The notes below the pieces were generated by a model. The model was not told the DNA's origin. It searched no databases and saw only the letters and a list, made by a program, of their open reading frames with translations. DNA of 64,000 bases from Thermocoleostomius sinensis A174 (GTDB lineage Bacteria; Cyanobacteriota; Cyanobacteriia; Elainellales; Elainellaceae). The DNA lies in assembly GCF_026802175.1 (NCBI RefSeq), contig NZ_CP113797.1, positions 372,001 to 436,000 of the forward strand, given 5' to 3'. The translations under genes were made by a program, and so were the position numbers. This document shows positions 3,886-64,000 of the stretch, piece after piece. Each line of letters opens with the position of its first letter. Position 1 is the first letter of the stretch.

Positions 3886-4953
3886 TCAGGATGAGGATGC
3901 CAGCAATTCTTGTTTTTGCCGATCGCCTTCCTGAATAAAGGACTCGACGAGAGCCACGTCTTCACGGCTGCCAATAATCAGCGGGGTGCGCGCGTGCAGC
4001 TTATCGGGGATAACATCCAAAATTTCCTGGGAACCAGTGCTGGCTCGTCCTCCAGCTTGTTCAACCAGAAAGGCTAACGGAGCCGATTCATACAGCAACC
4101 GCAGTTTGCCTTCTGGTTTTTTGACGGTTCCAGGGTAAAGAAACACACCGCCTTGAAACAGAATGCGATGAATGTCGCCTACCAGTGCTCCACTATAGCG
4201 AGCGGTATAGCCTTCATGTCGATGAACATAGCGAATGTAATCGCGGATGGAATCTTCCCACTGCCAGAAGTTTCCCTCGTTGACGCTATAAACCGGGCCA
4301 TGGTCGGGAATACGGATATTTTCTGCGGAAAGAATGAATTCTCCTAGGCTGGGATCGAGGGTAAAGGCATGAACACCGCGCCCGATCGAATACACCAACA
4401 AGGTGCTGGGGCCATAGAGAATATAGCCTGCTGCAATTTGGTTCCGTCCTGCTTGCAAAAGGTCTTTAGCCGAGTGATCAAGGTCTTCGCCTTCTTGGCG
4501 GCGAATTGAGAAAATTGAGCCAACGTTGAGGTTGATGTCTACATTGGAGGAACCGTCGATCGGATCGTAGAGTAGAGTGTAGCGACCGATCGGGCAATTT
4601 TCGGGAATGTAATAGGGGTTCTCCATCTCCTCGGATGCCAACCGGCACACCAGCCCGCTTTGCTGAAAAGCAGAGATAAATACCTGGTTGGCAAAAATGT
4701 CCATCTTTTTAACAGATTCGCCTTGCACATTGGTGCGCCCCGTAAATCCCAAGGCATCTTCGACTAATCCTGCCCGCGTCAACCGACGGGCAATCAGTTT
4801 GCCAGCCAAGGCAATACGATTCATCAAGGCGCTTAAATCTTGCGCTTCAGGAGAAAAACTTTGCAATTGTTGCAGCACATGCCGAGCCAGGGTTGTGCTG
4901 TCGCGATCGAGTGCATATTGATAGTCAAGGGCTAACGGTTCGATATCGGTCAT
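3886..4953 (-). CDS. fbp: Class I fructose-1,6-bisphosphatase
   Basis: Hydrolyses fructose-1,6-bisphosphate to fructose-6-phosphate in gluconeogenesis and possibly the Calvin cycle. The 355-residue product has the metal-binding signature DPIDGSSN at 130-137, the upstream SEEME metal site at 108-112, and the C-terminal substrate segment [12 protein letters not shown]. It is the single-activity class I enzyme, not the bifunctional GlpX-type FBPase/SBPase. A good Shine-Dalgarno (GGAGAGGAA) precedes the ATG at 4953. It is the first gene of the minus-strand fbp-zwf-opcA series; the 249-bp gap to zwf could hold a second promoter. Confidence 0.96.
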
Positions 4954-5387
4954 ACGGGTTCCTCTCCGTTAGTTAAGTAATGAGCAGCCGCAAATCCGGA
5001 GATTTTAGTTGCAGGTAGTAGGCAGTGCTGACCCTATTGGAATAGGTGTTCAGGTAACGCTGCGGCCCTTATATGGACGGTTTGATCAGGGCTTTCAATC
5101 TAAAATCATTACGGATTCAAGCTACCTCTACCTCCTATGATAGGAAGACCTTTTCAGAAGCGGGCTGAGCTTTAGGTCAATTACAGAAATCATCCTGGAA
5201 TCTATAGGGTTGAACTAGGTTGAACTCGCCTGAACCAGCAATTTGCTACGAAACGACACAAAACTTGACCGTTCCTCTCCTGAATTTAAAGAACCTATGC
5301 TAGGGCGATCGTCCATCCCCTCTGCGACAGATACTGAAAAACACAGATGTTTTAGTTGTTTGAGTCTTAGAAAATTTGGGAGGTTGT
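4954..5387. other. Divergent promoter region between fbp and pfkA
   Basis: These 430 bp separate the divergent fbp and pfkA starts and must hold both promoters. No conserved RNA or gene is recognised. Short inverted stretches such as CCTATTggAATAGG (around 5033-5046) are present but have no assigned role. Confidence 0.4.
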
Positions 5388-8446: not shown

Positions 8447-9508
8447 GTGGACTTGACAGTGAACTTGACATTTGAGTCGCTTGTGCAAACGATTACGGAA
8501 TTAGTGCTATGCCATTCACCTAGCGGTGTTGAAACTGAAGTCGATCGCTATTTGTTGCAACGGTTTGCAGCCCTTCAGGTGGAAGCATGGCTTGATGAGG
8601 CTGGCAATTTAATTGCGAAGTTACCAGGACGTCAGTCTGACCGAGCAATTGCCATCACTGCCCACAAAGACGAGATCGGAGCTTTGGTGAAGCGCATTGA
8701 TGATGCGGGTCGGGTGGAAGTGCGAAAACTAGGCGGGGCCTACCCATGGGTCTATGGCGAAGGTGTGGTGGATTTGCTGGGCGATCGGGAAACCATCAGC
8801 GGTATTCTCAGCTTTGGTTCGCGGCATGTGTCTCATGAGTCGCCCCAAAAAGCTCAGCAAGAGACCAAACCTGTGCGATGGGAAACGGCCTGGATTGAAA
8901 CTAAATGCTCTCTATCAGAGTTGGAAGCAGCAGGTATTCGTCCCGGTACCCGCATGGTCGTGGGCAAACATCGCAAACACCCCTTTCGGCTCAAAGATTA
9001 CATTGCCAGTTACACGCTCGATAACAAAGCCTCGATCGCCATTTTGTTAGCCTTAGCTGAGCAAATACAACAACCTGCTGTAAATGTGTTTCTTGTCGCT
9101 TCCTCCAAAGAGGAAGTAGGAGCCATTGGAGCGCTTTATTTTACACAACGACAAAAATTAGATGCCTTGATTGCTTTGGAAATCTGCCCATTGTCTAAAG
9201 AATACCCGATTGACGATAGCATAGACCCAGTATTGCTCTCTCAAGATGGATATGGGCTATATGACGAAGGACTGAATCAAGAGTTATACCAAGCGGCACA
9301 ACAGGTAGGCATTCCGCTTCAGTTTGCAGCAATCAGCGGGTTTGGCAGCGATGCCTCGATCGCCATGAAGTTTGGGCACGTGGCACGAGCAGCTTGTCTG
9401 GGCTTTCCCACTCAAAATACCCACGGCTATGAAATTGCGCATTTGGGGGCAATTAAGCGGTGCGTTGAGGTGTTACAGGTATATTGCTGTGAAAGGAATG
9501 CTGAATAA
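8447..9508 (+). CDS. M42 family metallopeptidase (glutamyl aminopeptidase/FrvX-like)
   Basis: A cytosolic di-metal aminopeptidase of the M42/PepA-TET family, 353 residues. Metal ligands and catalytic residues expected for the family are visible: H73 in TAHKDEIG, the aspartate in TLDNKAS, the glutamate pair in SSKEEVGA, an acidic residue in ALEICPLS, and a C-terminal histidine in NTHGYEIAHLG. The frame opens with GTG at 8447; a second GTG twelve bases later is possible. It converges with uvsE, the two stops being about 30 bp apart. The exact peptide substrate cannot be read from the sequence. Confidence 0.87.
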   Translation: MDLTVNLTFESLVQTITELVLCHSPSGVETEVDRYLLQRFAALQVEAWLDEAGNLIAKLPGRQSDRAIAITAHKDEIGALVKRIDDAGRVEVRKLGGAYPWVYGEGVVDLLGDRETISGILSFGSRHVSHESPQKAQQETKPVRWETAWIETKCSLSELEAAGIRPGTRMVVGKHRKHPFRLKDYIASYTLDNKASIAILLALAEQIQQPAVNVFLVASSKEEVGAIGALYFTQRQKLDALIALEICPLSKEYPIDDSIDPVLLSQDGYGLYDEGLNQELYQAAQQVGIPLQFAAISGFGSDASIAMKFGHVARAACLGFPTQNTHGYEIAHLGAIKRCVEVLQVYCCERNAE

Positions 9509-62106: not shown

Positions 62107-62532
62107 TCACTGGTAATTGTAATAGAGTCGTTCTTCTAGCCAAACCTGGACTTCTTCTTCAGATTCTAGATAGGTAGCCTGTCCGGTCAGTGGATCATAG
62201 GCATACCACCAAACACGCCCCCCTTGATCAGTGATTTGATGAACTTCAGGCTCACTCGAAGACAAGGACCTCCAACTAGAGAGTAGTTGGTTGACACATT
62301 CGTCTAGCAATTGCCAGACCTGGGGATGGGATGGGCCAAGCTCAAGCTGCCAGCAGTTGTTTAAATGCTCAATTTGTTGAACCCGGTAGAGCAGAGGCTG
62401 ATCTCGGTTGATTAAAGTGTGCCAGAAGTATTTAATCTGGTCTATTAGATTGGCTGAAGGAATTGGAACTGAATCTGGGATTAGCTCTAATTGTTTGTAG
62501 CGCTGCCACTGCATGTCTACAGAAGATTTCAT
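62107..62532 (-). CDS. Hypothetical protein with a WW-like C-terminal segment
   Basis: 141 residues from the ATG ending at 62532, with GGAG upstream. Helical first half (LIDQIKYFWHTLINRDQPLLYRV), then a short beta segment GGRVWWYAYDPLTGQATYLES resembling the strand pattern of WW or papain-inhibitor-like repeats, and a tail of aromatic residues. Family not named. It precedes the thioredoxin-like gene on the same strand. Confidence 0.7.
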   Translation of the reverse strand: MKSSVDMQWQRYKQLELIPDSVPIPSANLIDQIKYFWHTLINRDQPLLYRVQQIEHLNNCWQLELGPSHPQVWQLLDECVNQLLSSWRSLSSSEPEVHQITDQGGRVWWYAYDPLTGQATYLESEEEVQVWLEERLYYNYQ

Positions 62533-62945
62533 AAGAATGCTCCGTTGTAGGGTTGAAAAAACGAGGCGCGTTCCTTCGGGGTAGCTCCCTACTTCCGTCC
62601 CCTCCGCCATAGATGCAGTTGAGCTTCAGTCACTTGACCTAGCGGGGGATGAACGAATTAAATAAATCGATATCTGTATTACATGATACAAAATGCTTGG
62701 ACACTTGGGGGCAATGTCATCAAATGTACATATCATTTCTAAACATCATTTCTGACGTAAGCAGACTGTTTGCAGCACTGATGCGCGCCATTCACAACGC
62801 TGATACAAAGAAGATGTCTATACGTGTAACTAATTGTAAAGTCATAAGGTCTTGATTTATAGATAAACAAATCTGTTTTAGTGTCTGTCGCTACATTTTT
62901 TAATTCGCTTCATTGGTATTTCTAGTGACAGTTCAATGAATTGCT
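62533..62945. other. Spacer upstream of the guanidine riboswitch
   Basis: About 410 bp holding the divergent promoters of the minus-strand hypothetical gene and the riboswitch transcript. A 68-codon plus-strand frame (62649-62855) lacks a ribosome site and is not called. No other structure seen. Confidence 0.4.
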
Positions 62946-63118
62946 TCTAGGGTTCCGTTTCAACTGGTTAAGGATCTTGTTGCGATCTTTCGTTGCTGTT
63001 AACTTTGGTAACTGCTAAGTTGAAGGTCTGGTCCGAGAGAAGCAAGCTAGCTTAGAAAGCCACACTGCTTTATTCAAGGTTTGCTAGCCACACGGCGGGA
63101 AAAAAACCCGGGAGGAAC
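62946..63118 (+). promoter_or_regulatory. Guanidine-I (ykkC) riboswitch aptamer
   Basis: The conserved ykkC elements appear in order: CTAGGGTTCCG (62947-62957), CTGGTCCGAGAG (63028-63039), and ACACGGCGGGA followed by an A-run and CCCGGGAGG (63090-63115). The CGGG (63096-63099) and CCCG (63107-63110) arms form the small 3' hairpin of the aptamer. The class senses free guanidine and controls guanidine-handling genes. It lies in the leader of a ureohydrolase gene, which fits guanidine hydrolase. Motif matching was by eye; a covariance-model scan was not possible. Confidence 0.92.
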
Positions 63119-63169
63119 TTCAGTTCACGATCGAATGGATCTGGCTGACGGTTTCTTTCGGGTTTTTTT
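63107..63169 (+). terminator. Intrinsic terminator forming the riboswitch expression platform
   Basis: Bases 63107-63118 (CCCGGGAGGAAC) pair with 63151-63162 over 12 bp including three G-U pairs. Inner helices TCAG/CTGA and GATC/GATC lie in the loop, and seven T follow (63163-63169). The A-run at 63100-63106 can extend the stem. The 5' arm is the conserved 3' strand of the aptamer, so aptamer and terminator exclude each other: guanidine should prevent termination. Confidence 0.88.
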
Positions 63170-63247
63170 CATTCGTTTGTTGCAACTCGCTCTTGTTCAC
63201 AAGCTGGTACACTCATGTGCAACGTTTCAATCTTAGAGGGGGTTTAA

Positions 63248-64000
63248 ATGTCTGCTAACCCTGACGATACGCCAACCTTTCAAAGCCCTGAAGTCAATGG
63301 ACAGGTGCCGACTGAGGCACAGCGGGCCTTAGATCTGGAAACCCGATTGCCTTTGACGGGATGGCAACAAGAGGTGTCTGAAGGACTGGAATACGGACTA
63401 GAGGCGGCTGATAGTATCCGCGATCGCACAATTCCCACCTTCTCTCGTGGGGAATTGCCCCATTATGCCGGCATCAACACTTTTCTTAAGGCACCGTACT
63501 TGGTCGATGTCCGTGAGGTGGGCAAATATGATGTAGCGATCGTGGGGGTTCCCCATGATTCAGGCACTACCTATCGTCCGGGAACGCGCTTTGGACCCCA
63601 GGGGATTCGGCGAATTTCGGCCTTGTATACGCCGTACAATTTTGAATTGGGTGTGGATTTGCGGGAGCAGATTACACTGTGTGATGTGGGCGATATTTTC
63701 ACCATTCCGGGCAACAACGAAAAGTCGTTTGATCAAATCTCGAAGGGAATTGCGCACATTTTCAGTTCCGGAGCCTTTCCCATCATTTTGGGTGGGGATC
63801 ATTCAATCGGTTTTCCCACCGTGCGCGGCGTTTGTCGGCATTTGGGGGATAAGAAAGTAGGAATTATTCACTTCGATCGTCATGTAGATACTCAAGAAAC
63901 AGACTTAGACGAACGAATGCACACTTGTCCTTGGTTTCATGCTACCAACATGGCCAATGCACCCGCTAAAAACTTAGTGCAGTTGGGGATTGGGGGCTGG
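63248..64000 (+). CDS. gdmH: Guanidine hydrolase (ureohydrolase family), 3'-truncated
   Basis: The 251 codons present encode a ureohydrolase-fold enzyme: VGVPHDSGTTYRPGTRFGPQGIR, the metal histidine in LGGDHSIGFP, and the metal-binding DRHVD in HFDRHVDTQETD, cut by the window end. Family members include agmatinase, guanidinobutyrase and the nickel-dependent guanidine hydrolase GdmH of cyanobacteria. The guanidine riboswitch in the leader and the DRHVD (rather than DAHTD) variant with the following RMHTCPWFHATN favour GdmH, which splits guanidine to ammonia and urea. A GAGGGGG ribosome site precedes ATG 63248. Downstream hypA/hypB-type nickel genes would be expected just outside. Confidence 0.85.
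   Translation, partial: MSANPDDTPTFQSPEVNGQVPTEAQRALDLETRLPLTGWQQEVSEGLEYGLEAADSIRDRTIPTFSRGELPHYAGINTFLKAPYLVDVREVGKYDVAIVGVPHDSGTTYRPGTRFGPQGIRRISALYTPYNFELGVDLREQITLCDVGDIFTIPGNNEKSFDQISKGIAHIFSSGAFPIILGGDHSIGFPTVRGVCRHLGDKKVGIIHFDRHVDTQETDLDERMHTCPWFHATNMANAPAKNLVQLGIGGW

Follow-up and report, generated by a model that had tools for sequence, protein, structure and literature searches.

The guanidine operon of Synechocystis PCC 6803, sll1077-sll1082, contains gdmH, ghaA, ghaB and an ABC importer and, in the available portions of the reports describing it, combines a guanidine-I riboswitch with a guanidinase whose sequence is closely related to the enzyme considered here (PMC8390497, PMC10094980, PMC12186494). 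According to the same partial sources, riboswitches of this class usually act as transcriptional on switches (PMC12186494), and both the switch and the re-assignment of the sll1077 gene are already in print for Synechocystis (PMC8390497, PMC12186494). In comammox Nitrospira a guanidine-I riboswitch likewise stands ahead of a guanidinase and a non-ABC permease, as described in the accessible part of the report (PMC11410670).

The window analysed here is a stretch of 64,000 nucleotides of the Thermocoleostomius sinensis A174 genome (C1:372001-436000), at whose end a locus of this kind begins. As in the Synechocystis operon, a pair of genes for nickel delivery is present in unchanged order, but where that operon, as far as it is described in the material available, has three ABC importer genes, the fourth gene here encodes a sodium:solute symporter. 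The comammox Nitrospira arrangement differs in that the first gene encodes a permease of the APC superfamily and there are no nickel chaperones (PMC11410670, available part). Our account of the locus is that a guanidine on switch working by antitermination controls a gdmH/hypA/hypB/symporter guanidine-assimilation cluster, and that NtcA probably drives initiation; we give this account as a whole a probability of about 90%. The first-pass annotation of this DNA had seen its value in the readable switch mechanism and in the re-assignment of the enzyme from agmatinase to guanidine hydrolase. Both are borne out by the computations, but both had been published for Synechocystis sll1077, so that in this respect the window is one more cyanobacterial case, a clean guanidine-I/gdmH leader in agreement with the published correction of the misannotation. 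What the comparison adds are a nitrogen-control box, the symporter and the exchange of a loop base, none of which that annotation contained, and with them directly testable claims on control, importer and loop base. The features are as follows.

62881-62894 (+), NtcA-like box GTGTCTGTCGCTAC, one base off GTAN8TAC, 68 nt before the AGGG of aptamer block 1
62917-62922 (+), -10-like TATTTC, 22 nt after the box, with spacing and neighbouring letters as in the relative L057 (TATCCC)
62936-63116 (+), guanidine-I riboswitch aptamer, RF00442 at 74.3 bits, E 2.4e-11, model positions 1-107
63099-63170 (+), intrinsic terminator, its 5′ arm shared with the aptamer 3′ end, 21-bp helix, fold z -5.8
63106 (+), loop base A (G in 88 of 89 aptamers compared), paired with U63163 in the terminator
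63236-63242 (+), Shine-Dalgarno-like GAGGGGG, read from the sequence, 66 nt past the terminator
63248-64000 (+), continuing to genome C1:436453, gdmH, predicted guanidine hydrolase of 401 aa, of which residues 1-251 fall in the window; 7esr/7oi1 E 2.5e-150, PF00491, Thr108 and Trp316
genome C1:436516-436893, hypA, TIGR00100 over cut-off
genome C1:436934-437653, hypB, TIGR00073 over cut-off
genome C1:437945-439441, fourth gene, sodium:solute symporter of 498 aa, PF00474

An Rfam scan with the guanidine-I model RF00442 returned a full-length match at 62936-63116 (+), whose 74.3 bits exceed the curated cut-off of 63 and which is the single match in the 5,809,202-base genome. The guanidine-I riboswitch that had been proposed at the end of the window was thereby recovered, although the model match begins 10 nt earlier than the start given before (62936 instead of 62946). 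All three ykkC blocks that had been claimed could be read in the sequence, namely CTAGGGTTCCG at 62947-62957, TCTGGTCCGAGAG at 63027-63039 and CACGG...CCCGGGAG at 63091-63114, and the only departure within them is an A in place of G before the CCC. The assignment of the leader as a guanidine-I aptamer is supported by this match and these blocks, and binding of guanidine is predicted.

As the first-pass annotation had stated for the last ykkC block, the aptamer ends in sequence that doubles as the 5′ arm of an intrinsic terminator. With the A and U tracts included, 63099-63119 and 63150-63170 form a helix of 21 bp without interruption; the stem of 12 bp described earlier is the core of this longer helix, and the seven T reported after it are the U7 at 63163-63169. 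The segment 63098-63166 folds at -33.7 kcal/mol, compared with -17.0 ± 2.9 kcal/mol for 1000 dinucleotide shuffles, none of which reached so low a value. P3 of the aptamer is formed by GGG 63097-63099 with CCC 63107-63109 and the terminator uses the same CCC, and hence P3 and the terminator are mutually exclusive in this leader, in agreement with the exclusion postulated before. For transcripts ending at 63165 and at 63175, pairing in the computed ensemble stood at 1.0 for the terminator and at 0.0 for P3, and forcing P3 in the full leader cost 14.4 kcal/mol (-70.4 vs -84.8). P3 was weak in the ligand-free folds of most of seven shorter transcripts as well (0.003 to 0.67, dominant at no length). 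Since this is so, and since the energies were computed without ligand and tertiary contacts, the folding shows the conflict between P3 and terminator and not a ligand response, which we infer from knowledge of the class together with the overlap computed here. RNA polymerase would complete the aptamer first and then, judging from the coordinates, transcribe about 50 nt more to the finished terminator. Without guanidine, the nascent RNA would fold the terminator at 63099-63170 and transcription would stop ahead of gdmH; with guanidine, CCC 63107-63109 would be held in P3, the 5′ arm of the terminator would be unavailable and the operon would be transcribed.

The same platform recurs among relatives. 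The sample comprised 89 distinct motif-found aptamers with their tails from the fetched loci, the window included and the Synechocystis aptamer absent, and in each the best helix between the aptamer 3′ block and the downstream sequence was set against 40 shuffles of the downstream part. The helix exceeded all 40 shuffles in 75 of the 89 leaders (median 14 bp, median z 5.4). Several of the 14 leaders that failed to beat every shuffle have, by eye, a stem interrupted by a bulge or an unpaired position; the leader of L026, inspected among these 14, showed no evident terminator stem. A terminator-like stem is seen in the leader of L033. L026 and L072 are one contig, of Elainella saxicola E1, on which the aptamer lies 42 nt ahead of the gdmH start codon and is perhaps a translational switch. 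A guanidine-I leader stands ahead of gdmH in 68 of 81 gdmH loci by motif, and Rfam adds L102 among the other 13. Neither motif nor Rfam gave a guanidine-I match over cut-off within the stretch examined, short in some cases, in the other 12 loci (L059, L061, L070, L073, L079, L090, L093, L094, L098, L101, L106 and L133), of which L059 and L061 carry partial motifs.

Searching the gdmH product against solved structures gave 59 matches, the best two being 7esr/7oi1 (E 2.5e-150) and 9fek (E 9e-120); the available part of PMC11410670 identifies 7oi1 as the Synechocystis guanidinase and 9fek as the Nitrospira guanidinase, and gives Thr97 and Trp305 as the residues that set guanidine specificity in the Synechocystis enzyme. 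Their equivalents, Thr108 and Trp316, are kept in the window protein, in a register taken from the structure-match alignment with two extra residues assumed in the crystallised chain. The motif DRHVD occupies residues 210-214, the arginase family PF00491 matches, and the nearest named relatives by sequence are those of filamentous and unclassified cyanobacteria. That the enzyme is an agmatinase, as family annotation would have it, is extremely improbable: the NCBIfam agmatinase equivalog does pass, narrowly, at 175.8 vs 174.3 bits, but the agmatinase 1wog is matched at E 8.9e-18 against the values for the two guanidinases, the specificity-setting Thr and Trp are both present, and extract with Sll1077, in the portion of the report available, degraded guanidine and not agmatine (PMC8390497). 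The earlier call of a guanidine hydrolase thus agrees with the structural matches, and the prediction that the gene encodes one is supported, its product being closely related to Sll1077/GdmH, a guanidinase of solved structure. By homology, GdmH with nickel would hydrolyse guanidine to urea and ammonium.

The changed base of the aptamer raises the matter of its ligand. Just 5′ of the CCC, 88 of 89 aptamers carry G and the window alone carries A. Loop base and terminator partner are G-C in 65 of them, G-U in 20, G unpaired in 3 and A-U in the window; in L056, whose enzyme is the most similar (92%), and in L007 the pair is G-U. The simplest history is probably G-C to G-U to A-U, in which the terminator pairing was kept and a conserved aptamer base was lost, and the missing G may lower the affinity of the window aptamer. 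It is a single-base natural experiment, with the terminator competing with a conserved aptamer base. One could read the same change as the mark of a ykkC variant with another ligand, ppGpp, PRPP or similar, or of a decayed aptamer, and a single change can indeed switch the ligand in this fold, as G96A does in the PRPP aptamer (PMC6031431, available portion). We consider this very unlikely, however: the RF00442 score is well above the guanidine-I cut-off, the downstream gene is a predicted guanidinase, the changed base sits in the loop before the CCC, by our placement away from the equivalents of the marker positions A46 and G89 in the accessible part of PMC6031431, and the terminator carries a compensating change, which suggests a maintained rather than a decaying switch. 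Control of translation instead of transcription termination is a highly improbable reading of the window leader. At least one relative, the Elainella contig described above (L026/L072), lends itself to it with its 42 nt from aptamer to start codon and no evident terminator, but the window has a strong U7 terminator overlapping the aptamer, and its Shine-Dalgarno sequence lies 66 nt beyond that terminator, outside both folds. Guanidine-dependent antitermination ahead of gdmH is the reading carried forward here.

Beyond position 64000, hypA and hypB follow next after gdmH, where the first-pass annotation had expected them, with TIGR00100 and TIGR00073 both above their cut-offs. HypA and HypB would deliver nickel to GdmH. 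The cluster copy of hypB is the only one over the cut-off in the genome; a second match falls below it (78.4 vs 121.2 bits) and is perhaps ureG. The genome encodes one urease alpha subunit, and its urease could use the urea that GdmH would release. The symporter gene would be cotranscribed with the gdmH cluster, a reading against which the gap of 291 nt between hypB and the symporter counts.

The symporter matches PF00474 at E 1.3e-34 and stays below the cut-off of TIGR00813 (125.2 vs 184). Its closest solved relatives are structures of the high-affinity choline transporter SLC5A7, 9rws (E 5.8e-24) and 8j74 (E 2.1e-19), which are organic-cation carriers and distant; an AlphaFold2 model built with 10 orthologs reached a pLDDT of 35.5. 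Near gdmH in 81 loci (80 named loci and the window), some of which end early at contig ends, an ABC importer of the L056 type was found in 55, a symporter in 5, both in none and neither in 21. Close symporter orthologs (E <= 1e-150) occur in 7 of 386 cyanobacterial genomes, and all 7 encode gdmH. Four of the seven belong to gdmH-hypA-hypB clusters that have a guanidine-I riboswitch at their head (the window, L151, L152 and L153), and the one in L155 is directly behind a guanidine-I riboswitch of its own (86.3 bits). For the symporters of L150 and L154, the 14-15 kb read gave no guanidine-I match; of the two genomes concerned, G249 is without any guanidine-I riboswitch and G193 has one on the contig of gdmH. 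Outside the 386-genome sample, further arrangements were seen in L057, which has the symporter in the cluster; in L060, where the symporter (riboswitch at 4816-4932, -) and gdmH (riboswitch at 5226-5385, +) diverge, each behind a guanidine-I riboswitch, with some 290 nt between the two switches; in L010, with a riboswitch ahead of the symporter and gdmH on a different contig; and in L070 and L094, where a symporter is near gdmH and there is no guanidine-I match. On this genomic evidence the symporter is likely a guanidinium importer and seems to replace the ABC importer of other gdmH loci; it would bring guanidinium into the cell where Synechocystis uses an ABC importer. A literature search of partial coverage found no report tying gdmH to such a symporter. 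It may represent a guanidinium importer of a new kind.

The consensus site of NtcA, the cyanobacterial nitrogen regulator, is GTAN8TAC, and in NtcA-activated promoters the -10 element lies 22 nt after the box. Of 88 distinct aptamers, 61 had GTAN8TAC in the 300 nt preceding them, compared with 3.34 expected from shuffles, the window being counted by a distal box; for 57 of the 88 the box was proximal, at a distance of 50-180 nt. As controls, spacer lengths of 4-7 and 9-13 gave hits for 2 to 12 of the 88 aptamers, and the palindrome in six permuted forms for 0 to 7 of them. After removal of near-duplicates a box remained upstream of 56 of 80. TAN3T exactly 22 nt after the box was found in 14 of the 57 (1.4 expected), the highest among the offsets counted. 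Sorted by first gene, a proximal box preceded gdmH in 54 of 77 cases, a symporter in 2 of 2, an ABC binding protein in 1 of 3 and other or unidentified genes in 0 of 6 (Fisher's p for gdmH vs other = 0.001, a statistic that ignores relatedness). Four of these six other genes begin like what are presumably urea-carboxylase-associated proteins; their aptamers, in L015, L023, L027 and L031, have a proximal NtcA-type box in 0 of 4 cases, and perhaps follow another promoter logic for another guanidine pathway.

In the window itself the proximal box is a near-match. Strict boxes are found in the relatives L056 and L057, 71 and 70 nt ahead of the AGGG of block 1, and the TATTTC of the window departs from strict TAN3T. 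Among shuffles, 17.6% contain a near-box followed by TA at 21-23 nt, and such a site is weak alone; because the near-match is so common in shuffles, the NtcA claim for the window rests on homology, with a spacer like that of L057. The strict NtcA-type box at 62676-62689 is 273 nt upstream of the aptamer and closer to the divergent gene. Judged from the proximal elements, transcription would begin at about 62929, leaving 7 nt up to the aptamer. NtcA thus probably drives initiation at this operon, a conclusion well supported in the relatives and weakly in the window, and nitrogen shortage would raise initiation through it. The enrichment of the box suggests a gate that needs both nitrogen shortage and guanidine. 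Excess ammonium represses the Synechocystis guanidine operon, and the available part of that report ties the repression to Slr1821 (PMC10094980). No link between gdmH and NtcA was seen in the available portions of PMC12930504, PMC10094980, PMC12282138 and PMC8400943, and it may be described elsewhere.

These observations can be joined in a wider reading: in many cyanobacteria NtcA would control initiation and the guanidine-I riboswitch would gate elongation; a distinct symporter clade would be dedicated to guanidinium import and take the place of the ABC importer, its gene standing either last in the cluster or alone behind its own riboswitch; and the G-to-A change in the window loop, probably by way of G-U and with terminator pairing kept, would be a compromise struck in nature between sensing and switching. 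We regard this as an even bet, less likely than the account of the locus given at the outset; our estimate was lowered slightly because the ammonium repression is tied to another regulator in the published material available and because two of the seven symporter genes are unlinked. If it is true, guanidine use is under the joint control of nitrogen status and guanidine itself.

A glutamine riboswitch (RF01739, 51.1 bits) lies at 62565-62657 (-) and reads away from the guanidine switch; the 141-aa ORF behind it, at 62107-62532 (-), has no Pfam or NCBIfam match. A lasting partnership between the guanidine cluster and this divergent glutamine riboswitch found no support, the ORF having turned up in 0 of the 80 other gdmH loci, of which several extend only a short way upstream. 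The genome has four glutamine riboswitches in all, and in L153 one (57.1 bits) is located at 8563-8638 (-), just past the symporter of the guanidine cluster.
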